NCBI GenBank assembly: GCA_900169975.1
Contig: LT827124.1
Location: forward strand, 124,001-188,000
DNA length: 64,000 nucleotides
Source: Pseudoflavonifractor sp. Marseille-P3106
GTDB lineage: Bacteria; Bacillota; Clostridia; Oscillospirales; Oscillospiraceae
Direction: 5' to 3'
Under the pieces are notes generated by a model that ran no database searches, was not told the DNA's origin, and saw only the letters and a program-made list of their open reading frames with translations. Shown piece by piece: positions 23,364 through 61,760 of the stretch. The translations under genes and the position numbers were made by a program. How positions within the stretch are numbered: the stretch's first letter is position 1; each line of letters opens with the position of its first letter.

Positions 23364-23379
23364 GTTAGTCATCGCTAAC
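23364..23379. promoter_or_regulatory. DtxR-type operator box 1 (ahpC operon)
   Basis: GTTAGTCATCGCTAAC has perfect GTTAG/CTAAC arms around 6 bases and sits over the predicted transcription start. It is one of eight such palindromes in the window. Confidence 0.75.
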
Positions 23380-23407
23380 CGGCGAAATTATGAATGGAGG
23401 TATTCCT

Positions 23408-23971
23408 ATGTCCCTGATTCAAAAAGAAATTGCCGATTTCTCCGTCCAGTGCTATCAGAATAACGCCTTCCGCACCGCTACCAAGGCGGATGTACTGGGA
23501 AAGTGGAGCGTGTTTTTCTTCTATCCCGCCGACTTCACCTTTGTGTGCCCCACGGAGCTGGAGGACCTGGCAAACCTCTACGATAAATTCCAGGCCATCG
23601 GCTGCGAAGTTTACTCCGTTTCCTGCGATACCCACTTTGTCCATAAGGCGTGGCATGACGCCTCCGAGCGCATCCAGAAGATCCAGTATCCCATGCTGGC
23701 TGATCCCACACATTGTCTGGCAAAGGATTTTGAGGTCTACATCGAAGCCGACGGCGTGGCGGAGCGGGGCAGCTTCATTGTCAACCCCGAGGGGAAAATC
23801 GTGGCCTATGAGGTCAACGCCGGCAATGTGGGCCGGAACGCCGACGAACTGCTGCGGAAGGTACAGGCGTGCCAGTTCGTGGCGGAGCACGGAGACGAGG
23901 TATGCCCTGCGAAGTGGCAGCCTGGCGCCGAGACTCTGAAGCCCAGTCTGGATCTGGTGGGGCAGCTTTAA
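23408..23971 (+). CDS. ahpC: AhpC-type peroxiredoxin
   Basis: The ATG follows TGGAGG by 7 bases and gives 187 residues, the usual AhpC length. The peroxidatic Cys47 is in FTFVCPTELEDL and the resolving Cys166 is in EVCPAKW, so this is a typical 2-Cys enzyme. It reduces hydrogen peroxide and alkyl hydroperoxides in the cytoplasm. Its partner reductase is encoded 3 bases downstream. A consensus promoter and a DtxR-type box precede it, which ties peroxide defence to metal (iron) status; PerR control is an alternative not supported by a visible PerR box. Confidence 0.93.
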   Translation: MSLIQKEIADFSVQCYQNNAFRTATKADVLGKWSVFFFYPADFTFVCPTELEDLANLYDKFQAIGCEVYSVSCDTHFVHKAWHDASERIQKIQYPMLADPTHCLAKDFEVYIEADGVAERGSFIVNPEGKIVAYEVNAGNVGRNADELLRKVQACQFVAEHGDEVCPAKWQPGAETLKPSLDLVGQL

Positions 23972-23974
23972 GCC

Positions 23975-25594
23975 ATGGAGCAGACGGCAAATTTCTACGA
24001 TGTCGTGGTCATCGGCGGCGGTCCAGCGGGACTCACTGCCGCCCTCTACCTGGCCCGTGCCCGCTACCGGGTAGTGGTCGTGGAGAAGGACCACTTCGGC
24101 GGGCAGATCACCATTACCTCGGAAGTGGTGAACTATCCCGGCGTGGGCAGGACCAGTGGGACGGAGCTTACCGAGACCATGCGGAAGCAGGCGGAGGGCT
24201 TCGGCGCTGAATTTCTGCTGGCCGAGGTCACCGGGCTGGAGCTCTCCGGTGACATAAAGACCGTACGCACCGGCCGGGGCGATTTGAGGTGCTTCGGTGT
24301 CCTCCTGGCCACCGGCGCCCATCCCCGCATGGTGGGCTTCCAGGGGGAGGAGCAGTTCCGTGGGCGGGGCGTGGCCTACTGCGCCACCTGCGACGGAGAG
24401 TTCTTCACCGGGAAAGATGTCTTTGTGGTGGGCGGCGGCTTTGCTGCGGCGGAGGAGAGCGTGTTCCTGACCAAGTACGCCCGCCAGGTGACCATTCTCA
24501 TCCGGGGAGACGACTTCACCTGCGCCCAGGCAACAGCGGATGCAGCCAGAAACCACGAGAAGATCACCGTTCTCACCAACACAGAGGTGGAGGAGGTGTC
24601 CGGCGACACTTCTCTCCGCTATCTCCGGTACCGGAATACCAAAACCGGTCAAGTGACCAAGCACCATGCGGCGGACGGAGAGACCTTCGGCGTGTTCGTT
24701 TTTGCCGGTTATGAGCCGGCCACGGAGCTGGTGCGCGGCCTGGCTGAATTGAATGACCAGGGCTATATCCTCACAGACCGGAGCCAAAAGACAACTGCGG
24801 ACGGCCTGTACGCCGCAGGAGATGTATGTGTCAAGCCTCTGCGCCAGGTGGTTACCGCCGTGGGAGACGGCGCCCTTGCCGCCACGGAGCTGGAACACCT
24901 GTGCGCCGCCATGCAGGAAAAGACCGGCATCCATCCCAAAGCTCCGGTGAGCCGGGCAGAAGAAACAGCGGTATCCACCGAAACAAACAGCACACTTTTT
25001 ACGGGGGGCATGCTGGCCCAGCTCCATACGGTATTTGCCCGGATGGCCGCTCCACTGGTCCTGCGGCTGTATCTGGACGAAACGCCTCTTTCGGCTGAGT
25101 TGAAGCAGTATATGGAGGAACTGGCGGCGCAGAGCAGTAAGCTCACAGCAGAGATAGGAACAGCCGAAGAGATGGAGCACCTGCCCTGTGTCCGGGTCTG
25201 CCGGCCGGATGGGAGCTGGACAGGCCTCGCTTTCCATGGGGTCCCCGGCGGCCACGAGTTCACCTCCTTCGTCCTGGGCCTCTACAATGCCGCCGGGCCG
25301 GGGCAGGCTCTGGACGAAGATACAAGAGCAGCGATTCAGTCGGTCCAGAAGCCTATCAAATTAGAGATTCTGGTCTCCCTCTCCTGTACCATGTGCCCGG
25401 AACTGGTGACGGCGGCCCAGCGGATCGCCGCGGAAAATCCGCACATCACCGCCCAGGTCTATGACCTGAACCACTTCCCAGACCTGCGGGAGAGGTATCA
25501 GGTGATGAGCGTCCCCTGCCTGGTCATCAATGATGGGGCGCAGGTATCCTTCGGAAAGAAAAACATCCGGCAGTTGTTAGAACTCTTAACATAG
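23975..25594 (+). CDS. AhpF-like thioredoxin-reductase fused to a C-terminal redox domain
   Basis: Residues 1-310 are a thioredoxin-reductase-type flavoprotein: FAD motif VVIGGGPAGL (11-20), active disulfide CATC (Cys136, Cys139), and a second dinucleotide motif in FVVGGGFAAAE. Residues about 335-539 form a tandem thioredoxin-like module with a CTMC pair (Cys471, Cys474), like the N-terminal domain of AhpF. In enteric AhpF that module comes first; here it comes last. The enzyme probably passes NAD(P)H electrons to the AhpC encoded just upstream. A terminator follows. Confidence 0.85.
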   Translation: MEQTANFYDVVVIGGGPAGLTAALYLARARYRVVVVEKDHFGGQITITSEVVNYPGVGRTSGTELTETMRKQAEGFGAEFLLAEVTGLELSGDIKTVRTGRGDLRCFGVLLATGAHPRMVGFQGEEQFRGRGVAYCATCDGEFFTGKDVFVVGGGFAAAEESVFLTKYARQVTILIRGDDFTCAQATADAARNHEKITVLTNTEVEEVSGDTSLRYLRYRNTKTGQVTKHHAADGETFGVFVFAGYEPATELVRGLAELNDQGYILTDRSQKTTADGLYAAGDVCVKPLRQVVTAVGDGALAATELEHLCAAMQEKTGIHPKAPVSRAEETAVSTETNSTLFTGGMLAQLHTVFARMAAPLVLRLYLDETPLSAELKQYMEELAAQSSKLTAEIGTAEEMEHLPCVRVCRPDGSWTGLAFHGVPGGHEFTSFVLGLYNAAGPGQALDEDTRAAIQSVQKPIKLEILVSLSCTMCPELVTAAQRIAAENPHITAQVYDLNHFPDLRERYQVMSVPCLVINDGAQVSFGKKNIRQLLELLT

Positions 25595-25597
25595 CAA

Positions 25598-25640
25598 GGA
25601 AGCCGCGTTGCGGGCCGTTTGGTCTACAACGCGGCTTTCC
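25598..25640 (+). terminator. Terminator of the ahpC operon
   Basis: GGAAGCCGCGTTG pairs with CAACGCGGCTTTCC across about 16 bases. It directly follows the reductase stop. Confidence 0.65.
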
Positions 25641-25686: not shown

Positions 25687-25702
25687 GTTACCAAGAACTA
25701 AC
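25687..25702. promoter_or_regulatory. DtxR-type operator box 2 (methyltransferase), one mismatch
   Basis: GTTACCAAGAACTAAC differs from GTTAG-N6-CTAAC at one arm position. It sits just after the -10, like the boxes at 23364 and 61745. Confidence 0.55.
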
Positions 25703-25722: not shown

Positions 25723-26334
25723 ATGAGGAAATCAGATCTGGACTTCTGGCAGGGAATGGCCGCACATTACAGCAAATTCATGCGGCGCTCCGCACCGATA
25801 TATGCGGAAATCTGCAATCACATTCGTCCGCATCTCACCCGGGATATGAATGTATTGGAACTGGCCTGTGGCACAGGCCAGCTGTCCTTTCCCTTGTCTC
25901 CGTATGTCCGGTTGTGGGAGGCCACCGATGCCTCTTCCAAAATGATTGCGGAGGCGAAGAAACAGACCGGATCTTCCCGGCTTCATTTCTCGGTACAGGA
26001 TGCTTCCCGGTTGCCGTATGCCTCGGAAACCTTTGACGCGGTGGTAATCGCCAATGCCCTGCATATCTTACCGGAGCCGGAAAAGGTTTTGCGGGAAGCT
26101 CGGAGAGTCCTAAAGCCGGGTGGGTGGCTATTCGCTCCTACTTTTATCCACGCTGGGGGGAAACTTGCCAGCCTGCGGACCTGGGGTATGGAGCGGACCG
26201 GCTTTCGCGTCTACCACTTATGGAACGCCGGGGAATTCATTGCTTATCTTTCGTCTCACGATTTCTGGGTGACGGAACACACTCTGCTCGGGGGGCGTGT
26301 ACTGCCTTTGTGCTATGTGGCGGGCAGGAAGTAA
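25723..26334 (+). CDS. Class I SAM-dependent methyltransferase
   Basis: The 203-residue protein has the SAM-binding glycine motif VLELACGTGQ (about 46-55), an acidic loop (ATDASSKMI), a motif IV-like AVVIANALHIL and the RVLKPGG post-motif typical of UbiE/Methyltransf_11 enzymes. The substrate cannot be read from the sequence. A variant DtxR-type box and its own promoter place it in the putative metal regulon. A second, unrelated methyltransferase at 41280-41897 is also next to such a box. A hairpin at 26351-26391 follows. Confidence 0.8.
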   Translation: MRKSDLDFWQGMAAHYSKFMRRSAPIYAEICNHIRPHLTRDMNVLELACGTGQLSFPLSPYVRLWEATDASSKMIAEAKKQTGSSRLHFSVQDASRLPYASETFDAVVIANALHILPEPEKVLREARRVLKPGGWLFAPTFIHAGGKLASLRTWGMERTGFRVYHLWNAGEFIAYLSSHDFWVTEHTLLGGRVLPLCYVAGRK

Positions 26335-31384: not shown

Positions 31385-33115
31385 TCAGAGTGTCCAGCGG
31401 CTGGACTCCGTCCGCTCGGAGACGAAATCCCGGTAGATGCCCGCCTGCCGGATCAGTTCGTCGTGGGTACCCTTTTGGACGACGCGGCCCTGGTCCACCA
31501 CCAGGATCTGGTCCGCGCCCCGCACCGTCTTGAGCCGGTGGGCGATCATCAGCACGGTCTTCTCCCGCGTCAGGGCCTCCATAGCCTTTTGGAGCTGGTC
31601 CTCATTCTCGGGGTCCACATTGGCCGTGGCCTCATCGAAGATGACGATGGGCGCGTCCTTCAAGAGACACCGGGCGATGGAGATGCGCTGCTTCTCTCCG
31701 CCGGAGAGCGTGGCTCCTCCCTCGCCAATTACCGTATTATATCCATCCGGCAGGGCGGAGATAAAGTCGTGGCAGCACGCCTTTTTAGCGGCCTCCACCA
31801 CCTGCTTATGGGTAGCGCCCGGGCAGCCGAACTTGATGTTGTTCTCCACCGTGTCGGCAAAGAGGTACACCCGCTGGAACACCATGCTCACCTGCTCCAT
31901 GAGGGACTCCAGCGTGTACTCCCGCACATCCCGGCCGCCGATGGTCACACGGCCGCCGTCCACATCCCAAAACCGGGCGATCAGGTTGCAGAGGGTGGTC
32001 TTGCCGGAGCCGGAGGGCCCCACAATGGCGGTGGTGGTCCGGTCCGGGATGATCAGTGACACATCCTTGAGGATGGGGCGGCTTCCATAGGAGAAGTTCA
32101 CATGGTCGAATACAATCTCGTGGCTCTCCGGACGGATGGCCGTGCCACGCTGGTCCATCTCCGGGATGTCGTCTACCTGGTTGGCGTGGTCGATGGAACT
32201 GCCCACCAGACGCAGGGCGGACACGCCGCTGCCCGCGGACTGGATCTGGGAGAAGATCAGGAAAGAGACGATGACCGCCATCAGCGCATTGGCGAGGGAC
32301 ATAGCTCCCGTCAGGCACAGCCCCACCGACGCCGCCAGAATTAGAACGCTGAACAGGTGGAGGACCATCTCCTGGCCCCAGATATAGGGAGTAAACAGCT
32401 TCTCCACCGCCAGATTGTTCGCCCGGCTGTCCTCCAGCGCCTGCCGCACCCGCTTGTCGCCCTTTCCGGTCAGGTTAAAGGACTTGATGACGCTCATGCC
32501 CTGGAGCTGCTCCAGCACTGCCTCCACCAGCCGGGCCTCGTCCCGCTGGCGCTTGGGGGCAATCTTGGCGGACTGCTTCTCCATTCCGGAGAGGAGGGCC
32601 AGATACACCAGCATCCCCGCCAGGGCCAGCAGGCCGATCCGCCAGTCCCAGAACAGGACGCACAGCAGCATGACGGCGGAATTGATCAGGCCGCCCAGGA
32701 TACCGACCAGCACCATGGGGCCGGTACTCTCCACCTCGTCCAGAACGGTGGTGGTGATGCCGGTGAGTTCTCCCAAGCTCTGGTCGTTGAAATAGCCCAT
32801 GGGGACCCGCTTGAGCTTGTCGCCAATGGAAATGCGCTTGTTCGCCACCATGAAGTAGCCGGCGTGGGTCTGCTGGAGCTGGCTGAAGCGGTTGAGGACC
32901 GCCCGGCCCAGAATGCTGGCCAGCAGAAGCCCCAGCGCCTGCCAGGCCGGGGCGGAGTCTGTGGAGCCGCCCACCAGGGCCAGCACCACCACATAGATGG
33001 CCGCGATCTGGAACATATGGAACACCGCGTAAAAGAAACCTAAAATCATGGACTTCCGGATATTGTCCTGCTCCTCTCCGGCAAAGTCCCAGATTTTTTT
33101 CAAAACACCGATCAT
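31385..33115 (-). CDS. ABC transporter, fused membrane and ATPase domains (YbtQ-like half)
   Basis: The ATG at 33115 follows GGAGGGAGAGCAGGC and overlaps the partner gene's stop (ATGA). Residues 1-310 hold six membrane segments and about 330-576 the ATPase, with Walker A GPSGSGKTT, signature LSGGEKQR, Walker B IVIFDEAT and the H-loop AHR. The heterodimer partner is the gene just upstream. This exporter-type fold is shared with YbtP/YbtQ and IrtA/IrtB, which import metal-siderophore complexes. A DtxR-type box before the operon favours a metallophore role over drug export. Confidence 0.85.
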   Translation of the reverse strand: MIGVLKKIWDFAGEEQDNIRKSMILGFFYAVFHMFQIAAIYVVVLALVGGSTDSAPAWQALGLLLASILGRAVLNRFSQLQQTHAGYFMVANKRISIGDKLKRVPMGYFNDQSLGELTGITTTVLDEVESTGPMVLVGILGGLINSAVMLLCVLFWDWRIGLLALAGMLVYLALLSGMEKQSAKIAPKRQRDEARLVEAVLEQLQGMSVIKSFNLTGKGDKRVRQALEDSRANNLAVEKLFTPYIWGQEMVLHLFSVLILAASVGLCLTGAMSLANALMAVIVSFLIFSQIQSAGSGVSALRLVGSSIDHANQVDDIPEMDQRGTAIRPESHEIVFDHVNFSYGSRPILKDVSLIIPDRTTTAIVGPSGSGKTTLCNLIARFWDVDGGRVTIGGRDVREYTLESLMEQVSMVFQRVYLFADTVENNIKFGCPGATHKQVVEAAKKACCHDFISALPDGYNTVIGEGGATLSGGEKQRISIARCLLKDAPIVIFDEATANVDPENEDQLQKAMEALTREKTVLMIAHRLKTVRGADQILVVDQGRVVQKGTHDELIRQAGIYRDFVSERTESSRWTL

Positions 33116-34854
33116 GCCTGCTCTCCCTCCTTTGCGCCCATATGCGCCCGCCACATCTCCTGATACAGCGGGCAGTTCTTCAAAAGTTCCCCGTGGGTGC
33201 CCACATCCTGGCTGCGGCCGCCATTGACTACCACGATCTGATCCGCGCCGGTGATGGTGCTGAGGCGGTGGGCGATGACCAGTACGGTCTTTCCCGCCAC
33301 CAGCTTGCCCACGGCCTGCTGGACCACGGCCTCGTTCTCGGGGTCTATGTAGGCAGTCGCCTCGTCCAGCACCACAATGGGCGCGTCCTTGAGCATGGCC
33401 CGGGCGATGGCGATACGCTGGCGCTCGCCGCCGGACAGATGGGCGCCGCCTCCGCCCACCACCGTGTCATAGCCGTGTTCCAGACTGCGGATAAAGGCGT
33501 CACACCCGGCGGCTTTTGCCACGGCCTCCACCTCTGCGTCGGTGGCCGCCGGGCGGCCCATGCGGATGTTCTCCCGGATGCTCTCGTCAAAGAGGTAGTT
33601 GTCCTGGGAGACAAAGGCCACCTGGTCGTAGAGTTGCTTCAGCGGGACCCGATTCAAGTCCTGCCCGCCCAGGGTGATGGCGCCGGAGGTCACATCCCAA
33701 AAGCCGGCGATCAGCTTGGCGATGGTGGACTTGCCCGATCCGGAGGGCCCCACAAAGGCGGTCATGGTCCCGGCGGGGATGGTGAGAGATACATCGTGGA
33801 GCACTTCCTTGTCCGCGTGGTAGCCGAAGGACACATGGGAGAGCTGGATGCCCCGCCCCTGGAACTCCGCTGGCGTTTCCCCGTGGTCCTGCTCCGCTCC
33901 GTTCAAAATGGCGTCCACCGAGCCCACAATGGTGCCCACCTTGGCGAGACTGTCCACAAAGTCCATGGCGGCCAGCAGGGGCCCGGCAATGCCCAGGGGC
34001 AGGACGATGGTGGTGATAAAGGTCTCGATGGGCAAACTCCCTCCGGTATAGAGGAGCCAGCCCACCGGCAGAATGGTGATCATGGTGGTGGGCGAGATGG
34101 CACGGGCCAAAGAGACCGGCATCTGGCAGCTCTTCATCCAGTGGTAGAAGTAGGAGGCGTTGGCCTTTACGCTGTCGGAGAAGCGGGCATAGGACTGCTT
34201 GCCCTGGTTAAACGCCTTGATGACCTCAATGCCGCCGATGTACTCCACAATGGCGCTGTTCATGGCTTGGGTGGTTTTGACCGAGCCCTCGTACTGCTTG
34301 CCGTAGCCGGCCATGACCGCCATCATGAAAGCCATGCCCACCGGGATGGACACCAGACTCAAAAGGGCCATCCGCCAGTCCAGCACGAACAGATAGATCA
34401 AGATGCACACCGGTCCCAGCACATTGGCGGTCATCTCCGGCAGAAGATGGGCCAGAGGCCGCTCCATGCTCTCCACCTGATCTACGATGACCTGCTTCAT
34501 CTGGCCGCTGGAGGTGTCCAGAATCGTACCCAGAGGCATCTTTGGCAGTTTCTCCAGCACTTTCTCCCGGATAGATTTCAGGATAGCAAAGGTGGCCTTG
34601 TGGGATTGGGATAGAGCCAGGGAATACAGGGTGGCCCGGAGCAAAAAGCCCACGAGCGCCACTGCGCACCAGGTCAGGTAGAACGAGGATTCCTGGTTTC
34701 CAGACAATAGGCCGAGAATGATCTGAGCCACGGCAAAGTAGGGGAGCATCCCAAACAGTACCCCCACCACAGCGGACAGGACCGCCCGCTTCAGGCCGCC
34801 CTGTTGTCCCTCTCCCAGCTCCCACAGACGGAGCATGGGACTTTGTTGTTTCAT
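33112..34854 (-). CDS. ABC transporter, fused membrane and ATPase domains (YbtP-like half)
   Basis: The start follows AAGGAGGAATTTATC. It has six membrane segments (about 20-310) and an ATPase domain with Walker A GPSGSGKST, signature LSGGERQR, Walker B IVVLDEAT and AHR. All catalytic motifs are intact. With the next gene it forms a heterodimeric transporter. Its promoter region carries a perfect DtxR-type box (34874-34889), and a TetR gene lies directly upstream in the same direction. In Yersinia and in the Streptococcus equi equibactin locus, such pairs import metal-siderophore; this parallel is an inference. Confidence 0.85.
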   Translation of the reverse strand: MKQQSPMLRLWELGEGQQGGLKRAVLSAVVGVLFGMLPYFAVAQIILGLLSGNQESSFYLTWCAVALVGFLLRATLYSLALSQSHKATFAILKSIREKVLEKLPKMPLGTILDTSSGQMKQVIVDQVESMERPLAHLLPEMTANVLGPVCILIYLFVLDWRMALLSLVSIPVGMAFMMAVMAGYGKQYEGSVKTTQAMNSAIVEYIGGIEVIKAFNQGKQSYARFSDSVKANASYFYHWMKSCQMPVSLARAISPTTMITILPVGWLLYTGGSLPIETFITTIVLPLGIAGPLLAAMDFVDSLAKVGTIVGSVDAILNGAEQDHGETPAEFQGRGIQLSHVSFGYHADKEVLHDVSLTIPAGTMTAFVGPSGSGKSTIAKLIAGFWDVTSGAITLGGQDLNRVPLKQLYDQVAFVSQDNYLFDESIRENIRMGRPAATDAEVEAVAKAAGCDAFIRSLEHGYDTVVGGGGAHLSGGERQRIAIARAMLKDAPIVVLDEATAYIDPENEAVVQQAVGKLVAGKTVLVIAHRLSTITGADQIVVVNGGRSQDVGTHGELLKNCPLYQEMWRAHMGAKEGEQA

Positions 34855-51013: not shown

Positions 51014-51132
51014 AAAAGCCTCCAGTCCTAAATATTACAGTCTTGCGCTATGGTTTTTCATTTTACAGCAGTTAGCCAAGACTTACCAGAGGCCAATTTT
51101 TCATGGAACCCCATAACAATTTGTTATGCCTT

Positions 51133-52035
51133 TTACAGCATTTCTCCAAAGCGCTCTGTCAGCCAGGAGGCCTGCGGCGAGAGCGGACGCTCCGGGTCCC
51201 GCACATAGCCGATTTGAAGAAACGGCTCGCATCCGTTGATGGCCAGCGGTTTGATGTCATATTGCTCATAGGGGCGGTGCATAAAATTCAGGCCCAGACT
51301 GCAAACATCCGTATGGAGCAGGAAATTGATGATCGAGTGGTCGCTGTCGCTGTATATCACGTGCTTCATAACGCTTTGGTCAATGACCCCCATGCTCACC
51401 GTTTCAAGATGATGTTCCATAGAAAAGAAATCCCGTACTCCACGCATGAATTTCAGATTTGGAAGATCTGAAAAGTCCACACTGTCCGCATGATACAGTG
51501 GGTGCTGAGGTCCTACGTAGACACAGATGCTCTTTTCACTCTGCGGAATAAACTCCAATTTCTTGTGGAGAAGAATGTGCTGAAATGTAGGCACCTGCTT
51601 TTGCGCCACATATACGATTCCAACTTCAGAAATTCCTTGGTGGACATGGTCGGTGATCTCCTCCACGGTGCCCTCGTGGTGCTCAATATGGATTCCAGAC
51701 CCCCAGGTTTTGTAAAAGTCTACCAAAAGGCGGGACACCATGTTGCTGGGATATGCCGACAGCCGCAGACCGTTCTGCTCATCCGGCACGGCCAGAGAGG
51801 AGATCGTAGCCGTTGCTCTCAGAATCAGCTTCGCATACTCCAGCACGTTCTTTCCATAAACCGTAGGCTGTACGCCTTTCCCGCTCCGGACCAAAAGGGG
51901 CCGCCCCAGTTCATGCTCTAAGGTTCGGATGGTTTTGCTGACATTTGGCTGCGTGGTGTACATACAAGCCGCCGCTTGCGAAAGGCTTCCGCGTTCGCAG
52001 GCAGTCACAAAGCTCTCCAGTTGTTTTATTTCCAT
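51133..52035 (-). CDS. LysR-family regulator of the Nik-like operon
   Basis: The ATG at 52035 follows GGGGGACAGATCA. The LysR helix-turn-helix is MEIKQLESFVTACERGSLSQ, AAACMYTTQPNVSKTIRTLE, HELGRPLLVR. The effector domain follows to residue 300. It lies directly upstream of and in the same direction as the Nik-like operon. A DtxR-type box is 22 bases before its start, so metal control may act through this gene. The effector is unknown. Confidence 0.88.
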   Translation of the reverse strand: MEIKQLESFVTACERGSLSQAAACMYTTQPNVSKTIRTLEHELGRPLLVRSGKGVQPTVYGKNVLEYAKLILRATATISSLAVPDEQNGLRLSAYPSNMVSRLLVDFYKTWGSGIHIEHHEGTVEEITDHVHQGISEVGIVYVAQKQVPTFQHILLHKKLEFIPQSEKSICVYVGPQHPLYHADSVDFSDLPNLKFMRGVRDFFSMEHHLETVSMGVIDQSVMKHVIYSDSDHSIINFLLHTDVCSLGLNFMHRPYEQYDIKPLAINGCEPFLQIGYVRDPERPLSPQASWLTERFGEML

Positions 52036-52057
52036 TGATCTGTCCCCCATGCCATCG

Positions 52058-52073
52058 GTTTGCTATTGCTAAC
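52058..52073. promoter_or_regulatory. DtxR-type operator box 5 (lysR/Nik-like operon)
   Basis: Minus-strand GTTAGCAATAGCAAAC matches the consensus at 9 of 10 arm bases and has the same outer mismatch as box 4. Confidence 0.6.
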
Positions 52074-52468: not shown

Positions 52469-52879
52469 TTATGGAGGCAGCTCAAACTTATAGCCGCTGT
52501 GGGGGACGGTACGGATCGGATTTCCCGGTCCCATCTTCCGGCGGAGCTGGCTGATGATATTGACCACGGCCGCGCCGCAGTCCTCCGGGAACTCATGCCA
52601 TACGGCCTCATAGATCTGTTCCTGCGTGAAGACCCAGCCGGGATGTCGGGCCAGATACGCCAGCGTGAAGAACTCCAGGTGCGTAAGGTGGAGAGGCTGG
52701 CCCCGCCACTTTACCGTCTGCTTGCGTAGGTGGAGTTCCAGGCCGAGAAAGGTGAGGATATGCTTCGTGGCGGGCGGCTCCACAATCTCGATTCCAGGCT
52801 CTTCCGCCAGGAAGTCCTTGATCCTATCCAGAATTTGTTCCTCGCCATTGGTGACGGATAAAATCAGTAATTTCCCCAC
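52469..52879 (-). CDS. PhoB-type winged-helix DNA-binding protein without receiver, copy 2
   Basis: 136 residues, almost the same as the copy at 42905-43321 over the whole winged helix (LTHLEFFTLAYLARHPGWVF, VNIISQLRRKMGPG, RTVPHSGYKFE). It follows the intact dtxR-like gene by 34 bases and is the last gene of the S-T-A-dtxR operon. An orphan winged helix coupled to a metal regulator suggests a co-regulator or a truncated response regulator. No phospho-receiver is present. Confidence 0.78.
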   Translation of the reverse strand: MGKLLILSVTNGEEQILDRIKDFLAEEPGIEIVEPPATKHILTFLGLELHLRKQTVKWRGQPLHLTHLEFFTLAYLARHPGWVFTQEQIYEAVWHEFPEDCGAAVVNIISQLRRKMGPGNPIRTVPHSGYKFELPP

Positions 52880-52913: not shown

Positions 52914-53279
52914 TCATTCCGGCTCTACCGCTCCTTTCAGTAATTCAAACGACTTCTGGCTGATGGTGTGCTCCATCCGGCAGGCCTCCCGTTCCGCGGT
53001 CTGGGGATCGACCCCGGCCGCGACAAGCTGGCGAGTAAAGAAGCAGTGTTTCTCATAGGTCTGCTCGGCTACCTCCCGGCCTATATCAGTCAAGTGCAGG
53101 GAGAAGTCTTCATCCATCGTCAGGAAGCCGCCTTTTTTCAAGGTCGTCACCGCATGACACACGCTGGGCTTGGACACCTCCATGTGCCGGGCCACATCCA
53201 CGGAGCGCACCATGCCCTTTTCCTTTTGGAGCACCAGCACGGCCTCCAGGTAGTCCTCGCCCGACGCGTGAAGTTTCAT
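52914..53279 (-). CDS. DtxR/MntR-family metal-dependent repressor
   Basis: 121 residues with an N-terminal winged helix (SVDVARHMEVSKPSVCHAVT about 26-45) and a dimerisation/metal domain; the third DtxR domain is absent. Ligands align one-to-one with MntR: Asp9, Glu12, His78, Glu103, His104. The MntR Glu99 position is Cys100, in EACRMEH, which matches the DtxR Cys102 site. Known MntR/DtxR work links this position to iron versus manganese choice, so an iron response is likely. It is co-encoded with the ECF ATPase (8 bases upstream) behind box 6 and is the best candidate to bind all eight boxes. Confidence 0.88.
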   Translation of the reverse strand: MKLHASGEDYLEAVLVLQKEKGMVRSVDVARHMEVSKPSVCHAVTTLKKGGFLTMDEDFSLHLTDIGREVAEQTYEKHCFFTRQLVAAGVDPQTAEREACRMEHTISQKSFELLKGAVEPE

Positions 53280-53287
53280 TTTGCCTC

Positions 53288-54784
53288 CTATCCCATCTCG
53301 TTCAGAAAAAAGCGCAACAGGCGTTCCCTGCCCTCCGGCTCGCAGAGGGAGTAGCTTTCCTGAATCTTACCGTGCTCCATGTGGATAACAAACTTACAGC
53401 ACCGCAAAATAAATTCCGGGTCGTGCGTCACCACAACCGCAGTTCTTCCTTGTTCTGTAATTCTGTTCACCACCTCCGCCACCTGCCGCATGTGAAACAG
53501 GTCCAGCCCGCTGGTGGGCTCATCAAATACGATCAGCGGCCGTTCTGATGCAATCGCGGAGGCGACGGCCACCCGCTGCTTTTGTCCCCCGGACAGCCCC
53601 ATGGGATGTCGCTCCCGATATGGGAGCAGGTCCATCTCAGCCAGCACAGCTTCCGCTTTTGCACGGTCCTCTGTTCTCATGCTCAGACATATTTCATCCA
53701 ACACGCTTTCTGTGAAAAGCTGGTGGTTTACGTCCTGCATCACCATATAACAGAGCTTCAGCCGCTCTTTTCTGGAATAAATCCTGCCCTGTTCCTGCAC
53801 AGTGCCGCCGCACCGCTTTTCCAGCCCGCACAGGCAGCGGGACAGGGTGGATTTTCCCGCTCCGTTATGCCCAATGATTGCGGTTGCACCGCAAAAGGGG
53901 AATTCCACCTCGTCAATGTGCAGGGTTTCCGGCTGATGCTTATAGGCAAAGGAGAACTGCCGGATTTTCCATTCGGAGTCCCCGGTCCGGCCGTGAGGCA
54001 GCGCTATCCCCTTTAGGTCGTTCAGGTCCAGTGGGCGCAGGCCCATTTGCTCCCGTCGCTCTGCGGGCAGGCTTTGGAATTCTGCGGCGGTATAGTCGCC
54101 TCGGATCTCTCCATCTTTCATATAGAGGACACGGTCGGCCAGATCTCGCAGGTAGTAGAGCCTGTGTTCCGAAATAACGATGGTTTTTCCCTGGGCCTTT
54201 AGGCGCATGAGCAGTTTTCGGAAATCCGCAATCGCGTAGGCGTCCAGATTGGAGGACGGCTCATCCAGGACATAAATATCCGGGTCGATGGCAGCCGCCG
54301 ACCCACAAGCGATTTTCTGCTTCTCCCCGCCGGAGAGGGAGAAGATGCTCCGGTCAAGCAGGGATTCCAGCCTCAGCTGCTCCGCCACCAGGCGGACCCG
54401 CTCACGGACAGCCTTCTCGGGCAATCCGTGATTTTCCGGGCCAAAGGCCAGCTCGCTGGTCGTATCCACATTGAAAAACTGGGAGCGTGGATTTTGGAAC
54501 ACAGAGCCTACCATTTGGGAAATCTCAAAGAGCGACAGATCGCGGGTATCTTTCCCGCCCAGATAGACCGAGCCTGTAAAAGTTCCCTCGTGGTAATGGG
54601 GGATCAGTCCGTTCAGCAGACGGGTCAAGGTCGTCTTGCCGCAGCCGGAGGCCCCGCAGAGAAGAACAAAGGAGCCGTCCTCAATCGTACAGGTGATATG
54701 CTTCAGCGCCCCTTCCGTCAGACATTCCCCATCCACAGGGCCGCTTGCCGGATAGGAAAACGACACATCTCTGCACGCAATCAT
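53288..54784 (-). CDS. ECF transporter double ATPase (EcfA-EcfA' fusion), cassette 1
   Basis: Two ATPase domains lie in one chain. Domain 1: GASGCGKTT, LSGGEKQK, VLDEPSSNLD. Domain 2: GHNGAGKST, LSGGQKQR, VFDEPTSGLD. Both are complete. The start 54784 follows AAGGGGG and is 6 bases from the T-gene stop. It powers the S and T proteins encoded upstream. The dtxR-like gene follows by 8 bases. Confidence 0.9.
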   Translation of the reverse strand: MIACRDVSFSYPASGPVDGECLTEGALKHITCTIEDGSFVLLCGASGCGKTTLTRLLNGLIPHYHEGTFTGSVYLGGKDTRDLSLFEISQMVGSVFQNPRSQFFNVDTTSELAFGPENHGLPEKAVRERVRLVAEQLRLESLLDRSIFSLSGGEKQKIACGSAAAIDPDIYVLDEPSSNLDAYAIADFRKLLMRLKAQGKTIVISEHRLYYLRDLADRVLYMKDGEIRGDYTAAEFQSLPAERREQMGLRPLDLNDLKGIALPHGRTGDSEWKIRQFSFAYKHQPETLHIDEVEFPFCGATAIIGHNGAGKSTLSRCLCGLEKRCGGTVQEQGRIYSRKERLKLCYMVMQDVNHQLFTESVLDEICLSMRTEDRAKAEAVLAEMDLLPYRERHPMGLSGGQKQRVAVASAIASERPLIVFDEPTSGLDLFHMRQVAEVVNRITEQGRTAVVVTHDPEFILRCCKFVIHMEHGKIQESYSLCEPEGRERLLRFFLNEMG

Positions 54785-54789
54785 GGCAT

Positions 54790-55527
54790 TCACCCCCTTG
54801 CAGCCCACACATAGACTTGCGCGGCAAATGCCCCAAGGCAGATCAGGAGCAACACAATGTCCTGTGCGCGAAACCAGATTTTACAGATGTTGGTCCGCTT
54901 GACCGGTCCGCCCAGACCGCGGGTCAGTGCCGCCGCACTCAACTCTTCTCCAATCTTGACAGAGCAGATCATCATGGGAACCATGCGGTATTCCAGAATA
55001 GAGCCGGCCTTTCCACCGCCAAAGCGGACGCCGCGCATCCGCATGGCGTCCCCAATGGCGCTCCATTCTTCTGCAACCGTCGGGAAAAAGCGGAACATGA
55101 CCGACATGGGGATTGTGATCTGCTGCGGCAGGTGAAGCCGCTCCATAGCGGCCACGAATTCGCTGACGGTTGTGGTCGTGACTACGAAGTACCCCATGAC
55201 AATTCCCGGCGTAAACCGGAGGAACAGCCCCACAATGGCAACCGCGATAAAATTTGCAACCCCGGTCAGATAGGATAGTCCAAACAGTTCCAAGCAGAGG
55301 CTTCCCCCAAAAATCAGGAGATAGAGGACAGCGCCTTTCCATTTTCCTGCCGAGAGCAGAAGCAGCAGGGGGATCGCCGCCAGCACGATGATGTAATACT
55401 GCATGACGCCTTCATACGAGCCGCCCAAAATGAAAACGGCTATGGTGGTCAGCACCGCCAATTTTGTGCGAGGATCTAAAACAATCCCACTGTGGTTTTT
55501 CTGACTGGCAAGAAGTTCGCGGCTCAT
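54790..55527 (-). CDS. ECF transporter T component, cassette 1
   Basis: About six membrane segments. The two coupling motifs of EcfT proteins are visible: AMRMRGVRFGG (about 170) and AAALTRGLGGP (about 207). LDPRTKLAVL near the N-terminus is also typical. It overlaps the S-component gene by 4 bases and links the substrate-binding S protein to the ATPase. Confidence 0.88.
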   Translation of the reverse strand: MSRELLASQKNHSGIVLDPRTKLAVLTTIAVFILGGSYEGVMQYYIIVLAAIPLLLLLSAGKWKGAVLYLLIFGGSLCLELFGLSYLTGVANFIAVAIVGLFLRFTPGIVMGYFVVTTTTVSEFVAAMERLHLPQQITIPMSVMFRFFPTVAEEWSAIGDAMRMRGVRFGGGKAGSILEYRMVPMMICSVKIGEELSAAALTRGLGGPVKRTNICKIWFRAQDIVLLLICLGAFAAQVYVWAARG

Positions 55528-56105
55528 GATACAATGCCCGCCCGTTCAAAGTGCTTTTTGAAAAGTTTGCGCCCAATCAGGCCGCCCACCAGTCCGCTGA
55601 CAAAGGCCGCCGCCAGAAGCACCGGCAAAATCCAGTCCGGCATATAGGCCATGAGCGTATCTGCATATTCCTGTCCATAGCCGGGAAGGAGATTTTGATA
55701 GTAAGCATCCCGTGTCACAACAATAGGGATGAACGCGCCGATCACCCACATGGAGAAAACGCCGTGGATCAGGACTTCGCGCTTGGCGTTTTTGTAGCCG
55801 CAGCCCTTCATCATGAAATCAGAGATCAATCCAAAAATCAGGCCGGTGGGGATGCACCAGTAGCCCATTCCGGTGAGCAGCATAATGACGCCGAGCAACA
55901 GGCCGCAGATGGTCAGCATACCAAACTTTTTAATTTTGGAGAAAAACAGCATCATGGGGATGCCGCCGACCAGCGGAACGATCACACTGATGAGCGGGAT
56001 GAAAATAGGGATAAAGCCAATAGACGCCGCGGCAAAGATCACGATAAAGTAGATCGCCGTAAAAATACCGATGTTGATCAAGTCTTTCCCTTGAAGCCTG
56101 TTCAT
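55524..56105 (-). CDS. ECF transporter S component, MptD/Trep_Strep-like, cassette 1
   Basis: 193 residues with five or six hydrophobic segments. KDLINIGIFTAIYFIVIFAA and GGIPMMLFFSKIKKFGMLTI match the MptD (Trep_Strep) type of substrate-binding membrane proteins. The operon order is S-T-A-dtxR-winged helix, under box 6. MptD-type systems co-occur with heme or siderophore genes in Firmicutes, so an iron-complex substrate is likely but unproven. Confidence 0.82.
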   Translation of the reverse strand: MNRLQGKDLINIGIFTAIYFIVIFAAASIGFIPIFIPLISVIVPLVGGIPMMLFFSKIKKFGMLTICGLLLGVIMLLTGMGYWCIPTGLIFGLISDFMMKGCGYKNAKREVLIHGVFSMWVIGAFIPIVVTRDAYYQNLLPGYGQEYADTLMAYMPDWILPVLLAAAFVSGLVGGLIGRKLFKKHFERAGIVS

Positions 56106-56137: not shown

Positions 56138-56153
56138 ATTAGACAACGCTAAC
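56138..56153. promoter_or_regulatory. DtxR-type operator box 6 (ECF cassette 1)
   Basis: ATTAGACAACGCTAAC matches 9 of 10 arm bases. It lies 32 bases before the S gene and between it and the divergent AraC gene (start 56318), so it could control both. Confidence 0.65.
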
Positions 56154-56317: not shown

Positions 56318-57292
56318 TTGCGCGACATGATGGAAAGTATCCTGAAAAACAGCGATACTGTTTTGGGCGTAGAGTGGAAAAGCGGCCCAAATAGCAGCGA
56401 ACTTCTTTTGGAGCAGGAGGACGGCCGCGGGAGGATGGTCTTCCACCCGCTCTTTCCGGGGGTAACCCTGGCGTTTATTCAGGTAAGCGCCTCAAATTGG
56501 CCGGAGTCCGAGGCAAATGCCGAGCTGCGGCCCCTGCTGATCAATTACTGCGTTGCAGGAAGAAGTGAGCTTCTTCTGGATGACGGAGCCTACATATACC
56601 TGAAGGAAAATGATTTTGCCGTCAGTGAGCAGACTGCCCAGGACGGCTATATTTTCCCAACCAGGCTCTATCAGGGCATTAAAATCTATTTTGATATAGA
56701 GCAGCTCTCTCAGAACGCCCAGGAACTGATGTCCGCCTTTGAGCTGGATTTTACTCTGCTGCGTGAGAACTATTGCCGCAGGCAAAAGACCTATATCAAC
56801 GAGGCGGACAGCACACTTACCGCTATTTTCCGCAAACTCTGGGCACTGTCGGAGCAGCCGTCTCTATTTTATCTGCGCATCTATACGCTGGAACTGATTT
56901 ACGAACTACTCCATACAGAGCCGCGCCCTTCAAAAACCTGCGGCTTTTATACGGAACTTCAGGTGGGGATCGCCAAAAAAGCAGAACAAATCCTCACCGC
57001 AGATCTCCGGAAACATATCCCCGTGCGTCTGCTGGCGGAAAAATTCTCCGTTGGGGAAACCAGTTTGAAAAACTACTTCCGTGGGGTGTACGGCCAGAAC
57101 ATCTCCACCTATCTGCGGGAGGTCCGTATGAAAGCCGCCGCTGAATTTTTAGCGAACACCAGCCGCCCCATTGCAGAAATCGCGGAGCAGGTTGGCTATT
57201 CCAATCAGGGAAAGTTTGCAGCGGTATTCAAGAAGCAATTCGGCATGTCCCCGTTGGAGTACCGGCGCGCACAGAAGCTGGCCACACTTTAG
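56318..57292 (+). CDS. AraC-family regulator, cassette 1
   Basis: AAAGGGGGA lies 7 bases before TTG 56318; the ATG at 56327 is the alternative. Residues 1-210 are an effector-binding part with a cupin-like LLINYCVAGRSELLLDDG. The last 100 residues are two AraC helix-turn-helix motifs: PVRLLAEKFSVGETSLKNYF and IAEIAEQVGYSNQGKFAAVF, ending FKKQFGMSPLEYRR. It is divergent from the ECF operon. YbtA of the yersiniabactin system is the known type of AraC that senses a siderophore; an equivalent role is inferred. Confidence 0.85.
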   Translation: MRDMMESILKNSDTVLGVEWKSGPNSSELLLEQEDGRGRMVFHPLFPGVTLAFIQVSASNWPESEANAELRPLLINYCVAGRSELLLDDGAYIYLKENDFAVSEQTAQDGYIFPTRLYQGIKIYFDIEQLSQNAQELMSAFELDFTLLRENYCRRQKTYINEADSTLTAIFRKLWALSEQPSLFYLRIYTLELIYELLHTEPRPSKTCGFYTELQVGIAKKAEQILTADLRKHIPVRLLAEKFSVGETSLKNYFRGVYGQNISTYLREVRMKAAAEFLANTSRPIAEIAEQVGYSNQGKFAAVFKKQFGMSPLEYRRAQKLATL

Positions 57293-58755
57293 GCGCCGCT
57301 TCCCATAAAATAAGCACAGACCCTTGAAAGGCCGCCCGCATCCATAGGGTATTGGCCAGCAATGTTTCCCTGGGCGAAATGGATGATGTCCGTGCAGCAG
57401 TCCAGCAGCAGTTCCAGATCGTGTGTGATCACATAAACAGTGACACCTTCCGTGCTGAGCTGCCGCAAAACAGCGGCGACCTCTTTCATGTGCCGGTAAT
57501 CAAGGCCGCTGGTGGGTTCGTCAAAGAAGAGAATAGACCGCTTTGATGCAATGGCAGATGCGATGGCCACCCTCTGTTTCTGCCCGCCGGAAAGCGACAT
57601 AGGGTGCCTGTCTCTGAACAGGAGGAGATCCAGCCGGGTCAGGATTTCCTCTGCCTGTTTTGTATCCGGCTCCTCCATGCTGATCAACACTTCGTCCAGG
57701 ACTGTTTCTGTAAAGAGCTGATGGTTTACCTCCTGCATGACCATATAGCAGGTGTTCAGCCGATCTTTCGAACGGTATCGCCTGCCGTTCCAGATTACCT
57801 CGCCGCATCGCTTCTCCAGCCCACAGAAGCACCGTGAAAAGGTGGACTTGCCAGCCCCGTTATTGCCAATGATGCCTACAATGCGGCCGGCCGGAATAGT
57901 ACAATCCTGTATGTGCAGGATTGACGATCCGTGGGGATACGCAAAGCGGAACTGCTTCAGCTCCAGTTCCGTCCCTGTGCATTGCGGTGTTTGCGGCGGT
58001 TGTAATTGTTCCAGGGCGAAAGTGCGCAGCCCAATTTCCGTCCGGGCTTGCTCCGACAGGCCATTAAATTCCTCCGCAGTATATTCCCGTGTGATTTTGC
58101 CGCCCTTCATATAAATAAAACGATCCGCCAGACCACGGAGATAATAGAGCCTGTGTTCCGATACGATGATGGTTTTCCCTTGGCTTTTCCAGAAAGCCAG
58201 GGTTTTCCGCAGGTCGGAAATGGATGCCGCATCCAGATTGGAGGATGGCTCATCCAGTACCAGTACCTCCGGCTCCATGATCGACACGCCGGCGCAGGCA
58301 ACTTTTTGTTTCTCTCCTCCGGAGAGGTGGAAGATATTCCGGTCCATCAGCTTTTCCAATCGGAAATCACAGACCGTCCTCTCCAGCCGCGCCCGGATTG
58401 TTTCTGCAGGCTGGCCCAGATTTTCACAGCCAAAGGTGATCTCGCTGGTTGTATCTACATTAAAAAACTGGGAACGCGGGTTTTGGAACACGCTGCCCAC
58501 GATTTTCGCCGTATCATAGAGCGGTTGTTTTGACACTTCAGCCCCGTTGACCCACACGCCGCCGCTCATCTTCCCTTCGTAATAATGGGGGATCAGGCCG
58601 TTGATCAGGCGTGTGATCGTGGTTTTTCCGCAGCCGCTCTCGCCGCAGAGCACAGCAAACTCACCGCGCTTGATCTGAAGCTCAATGTCCCGAACACCAC
58701 CGGTATGCTCCGTTTCTTCTCCATAAGAGAAGGTCACATGGTCAATCTGAATCAT
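57289..58755 (-). CDS. ECF transporter double ATPase, cassette 2
   Basis: The ATG at 58755 follows GGAGGTGTCAGAGG and overlaps the T gene (ATGA). Two full ATPase domains: GESGCGKTT, LSGGEKQK, VLDEPSSNLD; and GNNGAGKST, LSGGQKQR, FFDEPTSGLD. It has 488 residues and is a clear paralog of the cassette 1 ATPase. Its end overlaps the end of the convergent AraC gene by 4 bases. Confidence 0.9.
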   Translation of the reverse strand: MIQIDHVTFSYGEETEHTGGVRDIELQIKRGEFAVLCGESGCGKTTITRLINGLIPHYYEGKMSGGVWVNGAEVSKQPLYDTAKIVGSVFQNPRSQFFNVDTTSEITFGCENLGQPAETIRARLERTVCDFRLEKLMDRNIFHLSGGEKQKVACAGVSIMEPEVLVLDEPSSNLDAASISDLRKTLAFWKSQGKTIIVSEHRLYYLRGLADRFIYMKGGKITREYTAEEFNGLSEQARTEIGLRTFALEQLQPPQTPQCTGTELELKQFRFAYPHGSSILHIQDCTIPAGRIVGIIGNNGAGKSTFSRCFCGLEKRCGEVIWNGRRYRSKDRLNTCYMVMQEVNHQLFTETVLDEVLISMEEPDTKQAEEILTRLDLLLFRDRHPMSLSGGQKQRVAIASAIASKRSILFFDEPTSGLDYRHMKEVAAVLRQLSTEGVTVYVITHDLELLLDCCTDIIHFAQGNIAGQYPMDAGGLSRVCAYFMGSGA

Positions 58756-59510
58756 CCTCTGACACCTCCCCAAAAAGCGATCTGCGGCTGGAGCAGAAAC
58801 AGAGCGAAGCAGGCGACGCAGAACAGCGCTGCCATAAGATCCTGTGCATGAAACCCAATCCGGCACAAATTGGTACGCCTTCCCGGAGCTCCAAGGCCCC
58901 GCGTTAAGGCGGCAGCGGAAAGTTCATCCCCGATTTTGACCACGGATACAATAAGCGGTACCAGCCGGTACTCGACCATCAGGAACGGGTTCTTTCCTCC
59001 GAAGCGTATCCCGCGCATCTTCATAGCGTCCCGGATGGCCTGATACTCCTCGCTGACGGTAGGAAAGAAGCGGAAAATCACCGACAGCGGGATCACGATC
59101 TTCTCCGTCAGGTGCATCCGCTCCATGGCGCCAATGAATTCGCTCACCGATGTGGACGCAATCAGATAGGCACCCATCATGATACCGGGTGCAAAGCGGG
59201 TCATGATGGATGTGACCGCCAACAGAACAAAGGAGGGGAGCCCGCTTGCCCAAATCAGCGCCACCCGCTCCAGCGCAAAGCAGGCCGCGTACAAAATCAG
59301 GTACTTTGCCGCCGTCTGAAAGCGTCGCTCGGAGAGGATCAGGATAAATGGGACAAGGCTCAAAAGCGGCTTTACCAAGTTCATGATCCCTTCATTGCTG
59401 GTACTGAACATCAGGGTGGTGATGGTCAGCAGGAGAAGCAGCTTGGTGCGCGGGTCCAGCTGGATGCCTTTCTTGCTTCCTGTTACTATGGGGTATGACG
59501 CGCTGCTCAT
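58752..59510 (-). CDS. ECF transporter T component, cassette 2
   Basis: 252 residues, about six membrane spans, with LDPRTKLLLLLTI, AMKMRGIRFGG and AAALTRGLGAP, the same EcfT motifs as cassette 1. The start overlaps the S-gene stop as TAATG, so translation is coupled. A longer frame was rejected. Confidence 0.88.
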   Translation of the reverse strand: MSSASYPIVTGSKKGIQLDPRTKLLLLLTITTLMFSTSNEGIMNLVKPLLSLVPFILILSERRFQTAAKYLILYAACFALERVALIWASGLPSFVLLAVTSIMTRFAPGIMMGAYLIASTSVSEFIGAMERMHLTEKIVIPLSVIFRFFPTVSEEYQAIRDAMKMRGIRFGGKNPFLMVEYRLVPLIVSVVKIGDELSAAALTRGLGAPGRRTNLCRIGFHAQDLMAALFCVACFALFLLQPQIAFWGGVRG

Positions 59511-60094
59511 TACGCAATGCCCGCCTTGGCAAAGTGCTTTTTCAAGAGGGCCTTGCCCAGCAGTCCACCGGAAATGGCGAACACAAAGATTCCTGCAATT
59601 ACCAGGATTATGCTCCACATCGGCATGACAGCCATTACCTGATCCGCATATTCCTCTCCGAAGCTGGCCGCAAAACTCGCCCAGGAGTCTTCCACCATAA
59701 AGTACATGGGGATATAGGTACCCACCATCCAGAGGCTGAACACCGCATACCCCAGCAGGCTCTTCTTGGCGCTCTTATAGCCGCCGGATTTCAAAATCAA
59801 ATCACCCAGCAGTCCAAAAACAGCCCCCAGGGGGACGCCCCAGAAGCCCATGCCGGTCAACCCCATCAGCAGGCCGCTCAAAATGCCCATAATGGTGACC
59901 ATCCCGAACTTTTTCACCCTTGTCAGGAACAGCATAAATGGGATGCCGGTGATCAGCGCCCAAAGCGCCCCCAGGACGGGAAGGAAAATTGGTACAAACC
60001 CGATGGGAATTGCGACACAGCAGCCGATGACAAAATACAGTACTGTGAACAGCCCAAGGTTGATCAAATCTTTTGCCTGAATCTTGTTGTTCAT
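59510..60094 (-). CDS. ECF transporter S component, MptD/Trep_Strep-like, cassette 2
   Basis: The ATG at 60094 follows GGAGGTGTTTCTT. 194 residues, with KDLINLGLFTVLYFVIGCCV and GIPFMLFLTRVKKFGMVTI, paralogous to cassette 1. Ligand choice may differ from cassette 1 because the loops differ. It is under box 7. Confidence 0.82.
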   Translation of the reverse strand: MNNKIQAKDLINLGLFTVLYFVIGCCVAIPIGFVPIFLPVLGALWALITGIPFMLFLTRVKKFGMVTIMGILSGLLMGLTGMGFWGVPLGAVFGLLGDLILKSGGYKSAKKSLLGYAVFSLWMVGTYIPMYFMVEDSWASFAASFGEEYADQVMAVMPMWSIILVIAGIFVFAISGGLLGKALLKKHFAKAGIA

Positions 60095-60118
60095 AAGAAA
60101 CACCTCCGCATTCATTGG

Positions 60119-60134
60119 TTAGCTCATTCTAACC
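60119..60134. promoter_or_regulatory. DtxR-type operator box 7 (ECF cassette 2)
   Basis: GTTAGCTCATTCTAAC has perfect arms. It lies 24 bases before the S gene; TATTCT on the minus strand (about 60149-60144) is a possible -10. Confidence 0.75.
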
Positions 60135-61300: not shown

Positions 61301-61391
61301 CGGACAGAACACACAAATATCTCAAGATTTTACAGCATCCAACTTGCCCGGCTCCAAAAATCAATGTTATAATATCCGGGAGGTGGTGTCT

Positions 61392-61679
61392 GTGGAATTA
61401 AACTTTGAAGGCGTAGTTGTTGGCGTGATGTCCCTTGTGATCATTGGAGCGTTCCATCCTCTGGTGATCTGGTTTGAGTATCACTTCACGCAGAGTATCT
61501 GGCCAGTATTTTTGATCGCGGGCCTGCTCTGCCTGATCGCCGCGCTTTTCATCCAGGGCCTTTTCTCTGTCCTTCTGGGGCTGCTGGGTGTTGCCTGCAT
61601 ATGGAGCATCCGGGAACTGAAGGAGCAGGCCCGCAGGGTGGAGCGGGGCTGGTTTCCAAAAAATCCAAAGCGGAAATAG
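61392..61679 (+). CDS. DUF4491-family membrane protein (95 aa)
   Basis: GTG 61392 follows GGGAGGTGG; the longer frame runs into the AraC gene and is rejected. VELNFEGVVVGVMSLVIIGA, FHPLVIWFEYHFTQSIWPVF and the C-terminal RRVERGWFPKNPKRK are the DUF4491 pattern. It has three membrane segments. Function is unknown. It lies between the AraC gene and the box 8 promoter. Confidence 0.8.
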   Translation: MELNFEGVVVGVMSLVIIGAFHPLVIWFEYHFTQSIWPVFLIAGLLCLIAALFIQGLFSVLLGLLGVACIWSIRELKEQARRVERGWFPKNPKRK

Positions 61680-61706
61680 GCAGGGGGCCTGCCTATTTCC
61701 ATCCTC

Positions 61707-61735
61707 TTGACAGAGTGCGTATGGTTTTATATAAT
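61707..61735 (+). promoter_or_regulatory. Consensus promoter of the micropeptide-ZIP operon
   Basis: TTGACA (61707-61712), a 17-base spacer and TATAAT (61730-61735), both perfect. Box 8 starts 9 bases after the -10. Confidence 0.85.
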
Positions 61736-61744
61736 TATCCCGCG

Positions 61745-61760
61745 GTTAGCAATGACTAAC
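61745..61760. promoter_or_regulatory. DtxR-type operator box 8 (micropeptide-ZIP operon)
   Basis: GTTAGCAATGACTAAC with perfect arms, extended to CGCGGTTAG/CTAACCGCG (61741-61764). It sits at the predicted transcription start. Confidence 0.8.

Follow-up and report, generated by a model that had tools for sequence, protein, structure and literature searches.

EqbA of Streptococcus equi (ICESe2) is a DtxR-like repressor that lacks the SH3 domain and has Cys104 in its primary metal site (PMC3672683). An imperfect palindrome of 36 bp within the promoter of eqbB has been proposed as its operator and holds GTTAGATGTATCTAAC, i.e., the word GTTAG-N6-CTAAC; the palindrome region is required for binding, and binding is raised by Fe2+ and Zn2+ and less completely by Mn2+. 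Upon deletion of eqbA, eqbE rose 13-fold and signs of iron overload appeared (PMC3672683). In the present study, this word was analysed as a repeated 16-bp palindrome, hereafter the box, in a window of 64,000 nucleotides from Pseudoflavonifractor sp. Marseille-P3106 (contig LT827124.1, positions 124,001 to 188,000), which is the whole stretch of DNA that was annotated initially. Judged from sequence comparison, the box is quite likely the one-dimer operator of a short, SH3-less DtxR-family repressor, which most likely responds to iron, and the word very probably links a mobile-looking metal-uptake cluster to iron genes of the core genome.

Switches of this kind are already known, EqbA being the first to be described. 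Among openly licensed papers, no report was found of a regulon of this size or of such an operator across the class, and no paper was found with the word TTAG-N6-CTAA; the available text of a DNA affinity purification sequencing (DAP-seq) paper on Clostridium thermocellum holds neither GTTAG nor CTAAC. Two dimers bind the 19-bp box of IdeR, one on repeats 1 and 3 and the other on repeats 2 and 4, and a single dimer can occupy a half site of two CCTAA repeats with a 4-bp spacer. PgMntR of Porphyromonas gingivalis has a hybrid Asp/Cys/Glu/His primary site, binds Mn and Fe, has twin FeoA domains, and did not bind its own feoB1 promoter in the published work (PMC4805248).

Results

Boxes in the Window

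When up to one arm mismatch is allowed, the window contains nine boxes, and four of these are exact. All eight sites of the initial annotation are present with 0–1 arm mismatches; one start given as 60119 is correctly 60118, and a ninth box at 51071 (GTTAGCCAAGACTTAC) had been overlooked. The boxes (listed without strand) and the adjoining genes are as follows.

23364–23379: box, exact; begins at +1 of the predicted ahpC promoter TTGACG-17-TATAAT
23390–25594 (+): ahpC (AhpC-TSA) and ahpF-like gene (Pyr_redox_2 + Thioredoxin_3)
25687–25702: box, one mismatch; precedes the methyltransferase gene
25723–26334 (+): Methyltransf_11 protein, below every NCBIfam cut-off
31385–34854 (−): pair of fused ATP-binding cassette (ABC) proteins (ABC_membrane + ABC_tran); "YbtPQ-like" is a label of the initial annotation only
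34874–34889: box, exact; 20 nt 5' of the ybtP-like ATG
34934–35587 (−): TetR-type gene, upstream of box 34874
41280–42854 (−): alpha/beta hydrolase (likely start ~42716) and methyltransferase
42761–42776: box, one mismatch; spans −4 to +11 of the predicted promoter TTGACG-17-TATACT
46630–51013 (−): NikA/CntA-like binding protein, two permeases and an ATPase
51071–51086: box, one mismatch; ~57 bp 5' of the NikA-like gene
51133–52050 (−): LysR-type regulator
52058–52073: box, one mismatch; precedes lysR
52914–53279 (−): DtxR-family repressor, 121 aa, candidate regulator; helix-turn-helix and metal/dimer domain, without SH3
53288–56105 (−): energy-coupling factor (ECF) cassette 1, i.e., Trep_Strep (MptD family) S component, CbiQ-type protein and double ATPase
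56138–56153: box, one mismatch; separates ECF cassette 1 from an araC gene
57289–60115 (−): ECF cassette 2, i.e., Trep_Strep, CbiQ-type protein and double ATPase
60118–60133: box, exact; separates ECF cassette 2 from an araC gene
61745–61760: box, exact; +2 to +17 of the predicted promoter TTGACA-17-TATAAT
61815–61979 (+): Cys/His-rich open reading frame (ORF), 54 aa, 5' of the ZIP gene
61995–62777 (+): ZIP-family metal transporter

The initial annotation had assigned one box to lysR plus the Nik-like operon; each has its own box instead (52058 and 51071), because 51071 lies ~57 bp before the NikA-like ORF 49400–51013 (−). It had also placed a −10 element directly before three boxes, which holds at 23364 and 61745, where the boxes lie 8 and 9 bp behind TTGACG/TTGACA-17-TATAAT, but not at 25687, where the best promoter is no better than shuffled DNA. 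Box 42761 lies within a long TTG-start ORF (41922–42854, −), yet upstream of the likelier start (GGAGG, then ATG, codon 47). The NikA/CntA-like protein scores 585.8 bits with TIGR02294 (cut-off 393) and 518.3 bits with the CntA model (cut-off 800). The 54-aa micropeptide before the ZIP gene had no credible match among the sequences compared, including two other ZIP leaders, and it was therefore left out of the mechanism.

The spacing of the two half-words was examined by keeping both and varying the spacer length k from 0 to 30. This control was relied on; the tool's own control, the box word read backwards, has a different base composition. In the window, four exact words have spacer 6 and none has any of the 30 remaining spacers. 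If one mismatch is allowed, spacer 6 gives nine, whereas each of the remaining spacers averages 0.23, with a maximum of 2. In the whole 3.12-Mb genome, k = 6 accounts for 17 of the 24 exact GTTAG-Nk-CTAAC words, and the reversed word without mismatch occurs once at this spacer, compared to 17 for the box word. Among the best 80 of 559 named dtxR loci, which by title are mostly from Lachnospiraceae and Oscillospiraceae, spacer 6 is found in 53 of 56 exact words (spacer 0–30), in 33 of the 80 loci; with at most one mismatch it reaches 67, beside unexplained excesses at spacer 2 (14) and spacer 10 (17).

That the palindromes are functionless products of chance or of repeats is scarcely credible. 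Two kinds of count nevertheless speak for chance: with at most two mismatches, the window holds 12 boxes against 12.96 expected, which is not above chance, and the reversed word outnumbers the box word in the genome both at one mismatch or fewer (42 vs 27) and over all spacers (55 vs 24). Against chance stand the spacer-6 excess in the window, the genome and the named dtxR loci, the varied spacer sequences, the position of the boxes outside genes, and the retention of the box before ZIP orthologues of two other genomes at differing promoter places: one has it between the −35 and −10 elements, and the second has it past the −10 element. Chance is rejected on the spacer controls, and not by the two-mismatch scan or the one-mismatch reversed-word control.

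Boxes in the Genome and Their Promoter Positions

With at most one mismatch, the genome holds 27 boxes, 26 of which lie outside called genes; gene calling was crude and missed some genes, and the single box C2:4768 is the only one inside a called gene. Nineteen of the 27 fall within C18:147364–263078 (115.7 kb, 3.7% of the genome; p ~1e-21 if uniform), a stretch that starts at window position 23364 and runs past the window end. The metal regulon of at least eight units that was proposed initially is supported in kind, and its extent is genome-wide. Outside this island, boxes lie between a DUF3793-flavodoxin unit and a FabA-like/LuxE unit (C1:9001 and C1:9068), in a feoA-feoA-feoB unit (C15:170113 and C15:170629), and, three in number, around a dtxR gene adjoining a Fur-family gene (C19:293939–294557). 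Beyond the window, the island includes a CobW-like unit and a unit with a heavy-metal P-type ATPase. It also has three further Trep_Strep genes; a neighbouring CbiQ-type gene, double ATPase or dtxR gene was scanned for two of them.

The box consensus is RGTTAGYNNNNRCTAACY, as determined from all 17 exact boxes of this genome together with 93 distinct ones of relatives. An interleaved second half-site pair at offset 5 was found in none of the 93 relatives' boxes with at most 2 of 8 mismatches, and the minimum for the own boxes was 3; the interleaved two-dimer box of the IdeR type was accordingly rejected. A sigma-70-type promoter better than 98% of the block shuffles was found for 8 of 29 box-gene pairs (ahpC, hydrolase, ZIP, two crp genes, an NMT1 unit, a Trep_Strep gene and feoA), and in all eight the box starts between −4 and +6 of the predicted transcription start. 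For the remaining 21 pairs, no promoter stood out against block shuffles.

Several features of the same scans are recorded separately. At C18:189–200 kb, a BcrAD/DUF2229 activase-like protein of 1287 aa, two Crp-type regulators and two NMT1-type ABC units (L025:4573–8436, 1402–4508 and 8562–11794) all have boxes, and the BcrAD and Crp pair is kept with a box in genome G036. Of 28 distinct pairs of boxes within 150 bp in the sequences compared, 10 are 34–36 bp apart (start to start); they occur at L052, L061, L066, L083, L106, L107, L127, L215 and the own C19:294506/294542, and some adjoin dtxR, feoA or DUF3793. Two exact GTTAGCACTC-N9-GAGTGCTAAC words (C18:63610 and C18:456155) resemble CIRCE elements of the heat-shock repressor HrcA.

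Conservation and Co-occurrence in Other Genomes

The targets in relatives were read from 80 distinct exact boxes, a non-random draw from 30 site loci and chosen regions of G010, G013, G028 and G036, where one box may face two genes. The facing ORFs were feoA/feoB-like (21), dtxR-like (15), DUF3793-like (6), fused ABC proteins of the window type (8), ZIP (2; 72–73% identical) and methyltransferase (2; 61–62% identical), the last being Methyltransf_11 relatives that likewise bear boxes in G010 and G036. Fifteen boxes had no facing ORF within 350 bp, eight lay inside crude ORFs, and others faced unmatched ORFs. Among the best 80 of the 559 named loci, 14 Trep_Strep genes have at least 180 bp of upstream sequence; a box (at most one mismatch, ~250 bp) lies at six of these, compared to 0.04 expected in block-shuffled DNA, and eight lack one.

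The presence of the box follows that of a short DtxR protein. Among 79 relatives, 66 encode a short DtxR (at least 100 bits), and 64 of these carry an exact box, compared to 4 of the remaining 13 (p 1.7e-7); the control word gives 36/66 and 6/13 (p 0.76). Across 156 genomes of the class, the corresponding counts are 79 of 89 with (at least 90 bits) and 22 of 67 without (p 3.5e-13; 4.2e-12 at a 130-bit cut-off), and the link is absent for the control word (p 1). Summed over the class, boxes and control words number 332 to 171 in genomes with a short DtxR and 44 to 129 in those without. In the 14 families that have both kinds of genome, boxes are more numerous with DtxR in 11, fewer in 2 and equal in 1. 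These cut-offs were chosen by us and the genomes are not independent; three of the 156 are shared with the relatives' set, and without them the result holds, with counts of 77/87 and 22/66.

The link has exceptions, which weigh against the proposed operator. Boxes without a matching repressor are found in G055 and G064 (both 97% complete; 7 and 5 exact boxes, neither with a PF01325 match above the cut-off), in G175 of the class (11 boxes, no short DtxR of at least 90 bits) and, counted above, in the 22 class genomes that carry at least one box without a short DtxR; G008 and G009 are further exceptions. Conversely, G001 and G044 have a short DtxR and no exact box, as do seven class genomes with a strong short DtxR (at least 130 bits). 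In addition, of 29 dtxR genes of relatives, only 9 are accompanied by a box (up to 300 bp upstream, or immediately downstream); the remaining 20 are not.

Such box-bearing genomes would be expected if the box belonged to another regulator (Fur family, or AraC, Crp or LysR type) that travels with these genes, and several boxes do adjoin araC, crp, lysR or tetR genes. This is nonetheless a slim possibility: the same core stands in the operator region of EqbA, the class-wide co-occurrence is with the short DtxR (the only family compared), and the box precedes feoAB where no such neighbour was seen. The DtxR-like shape ascribed to the box at the outset agrees with these results, i.e., the exact core in the EqbA operator region, the co-occurrence, and the iron genes faced in other genera.

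Candidate Regulator and Its Metal

As annotated initially, the dtxR/mntR-like gene at 52914 lies inside a box unit, downstream in ECF unit 1. Its 121-aa product matches PF01325 (41.6 bits) and PF02742 (39.8 bits), both above the cut-off, and the chain stops after the dimerisation domain, so that the SH3-like C-terminal domain is absent. The protein holds its place as a candidate regulator, although it is just one of six full-length short DtxR copies in the genome. Four copies belong to the island, a fifth is on C15 between tRNA-like sequence, and the sixth is on C19. All six share E8-D9, C100, E103 and H104, where D9 and C100 align with D8 and E99 of MntR. They resemble DtxR and EqbA in having Cys at the 102 position, and MntR in having Asp at the Met10 position. 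The base-contacting Gln43 of DtxR appears to be replaced by His, Arg or Tyr in the short copies.

Two kinds of small ORF were observed near these genes. At 43356–43559 (−), a 67-aa ORF holds only the metal/dimerisation half of a DtxR protein and adjoins a Trans_reg_C gene; it looks like the remnant of a cassette. Receiver-less OmpR-type DNA-binding proteins of 136–138 aa (window 42905–43321 and 52469–52879; L027:6891–7301; L028:18399–18815) are near-identical by eye and adjoin dtxR copies or the dtxR remnant; the domain was scanned in three of the four, and the protein at window 52469 was judged from its sequence.

The short DtxR may use the same operator and sense Mn(II) (or Zn(II)) in vivo, with iron import under mixed control. 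The Asp at the Met10 position points in this direction, as do the closest solved structures, which are those of MntR (E 7.8e-20, compared to 3.5e-15 for DtxR), and the best NCBIfam matches, which are MntR models below their cut-offs; the scores with the MntR/DtxR equivalogs were 78.4, 60.3, 44 and 33.9 bits (cut-offs 153, 138, 290 and 350). PgMntR with the same four ligands binds Mn and Fe, and a ZIP gene is among the targets. The MntR-like Asp speaks against iron, and the genome has three Fur-family genes; metals other than iron could also suit the targets of ZIP, NikA-like and heavy-metal P-type ATPase type. Iron is further disfavoured by two reviews: according to one, no SH3-less DtxR member described to date responds to Fe2+ in vivo, and the other assigns manganese to DtxR and iron to Fur in low-GC Gram-positives. 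Manganese or zinc sensing is still regarded as unlikely, since the Cys at the 102 position is that of DtxR and EqbA, FeoA-FeoA-FeoB and the DUF3793-flavodoxin unit are among the targets, and a separate MntR-like gene (C20:34360) with no box near it lies beside a second feoB. Iron is favoured because of the feoAAB and flavodoxin targets and the precedent of EqbA.

Mobile Setting

To the left of the boxes, the window encodes TraG-like, type IV secretion coupling and RepA_N proteins, and transposases are scattered among the box units. Eisenbergiella tayi has a counterpart, at 95% identity, of a 4.6-kb stretch with one ECF gene and its box; two further stretches, of 2.4 and 2.0 kb, have counterparts at 91–92% identity in Enterocloster alcoholdehydrogenati. 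Within about 32 kb, 10 of 15 exact boxes are clustered in G010 and 10 of 13 in G036. The two stretches matching Enterocloster (L150) adjoin each other in that genome; in the window they are separated by 1.7 kb (35572–37287), and this gap contains an IS110-type transposase. Next to the conjugation genes, window 1954–7158 (+) encodes a surface-type protein of 1734 aa, which has a thioester domain and 12 SpaA domains.

Discussion

Proposed Mechanism

In the proposed mechanism, a DtxR repressor of about 121 residues without SH3, of the EqbA kind, would use the box RGTTAGYNNNNRCTAACY as its operator. A metal, most likely Fe(II), would fill the site of D9, C100, E103 and H104 and place a single dimer on the two TTAG/CTAA half-sites. 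Because the predicted start of transcription coincides with the box in many cases, the bound dimer would block RNA polymerase. A drop in iron would jointly switch on ferrous import by feoAAB, flavodoxin and the siderophore- or metallophore-type importers, and two or more ECF systems, the ZIP transporter and ahpCF would join the same induction. Some of the ECF and ABC cassettes include a dtxR gene themselves, and these copies would give negative feedback.

A wider proposal, to which we give slightly less than an even chance, is that in much of the class, contrary to the textbook assignment of iron to Fur in low-GC Gram-positives, iron uptake is under SH3-less DtxR repressors on one-dimer operators, and that conjugative iron islands, which bring private dtxR copies and share the operator, plug directly into the core regulon. 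If so, a new island would be regulated at once by the host repressor, and host genes by that of the island. Should the proposed mechanism hold, a single DNA word would suffice to predict the iron regulon in many gut anaerobes; no such description was found for these. Iron would be a likely context for the uncharacterised Trep_Strep/MptD ECF systems, fused ABC pairs and NMT1-type ABC units, and the island would be a case of a mobile element wired into the host regulon through a common operator.

Comparison with Known Systems

Bacillus subtilis MntR is a two-domain, SH3-less protein like the short DtxR here, and has Glu99 where Cys100 is found here. Its operator is a different word. PgMntR has the same four primary ligands as the short copies. 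The half site of IdeR, with its two CCTAA repeats, has the register TTAG-N6-CTAA of the present box. The iron box of DtxR and IdeR, TTAGGTTAGSCTAACCTAA (PMC7762939, PMC10317159 and PMC8464063), has in common with it the one-dimer register and metal-dependent promoter repression; these repressors differ in the interleaved second-dimer site and the SH3 domain, neither of which was seen here.

A close likeness is to EqbA: the SH3-less chain, the Cys in the primary site and the GTTAG-N6-CTAAC core. The EqbA locus also serves iron uptake, has fused ABC proteins that were compared to YbtPQ, and lies on a conjugative element, of which the present island, beside conjugation genes, is reminiscent. EqbA itself has Asn at the Met10 position, and its operator is described for one locus of nonribosomal peptide synthetase (NRPS) genes. 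The present system, in contrast, has D9, 27 candidate boxes, targets in the core genome and several dtxR copies.

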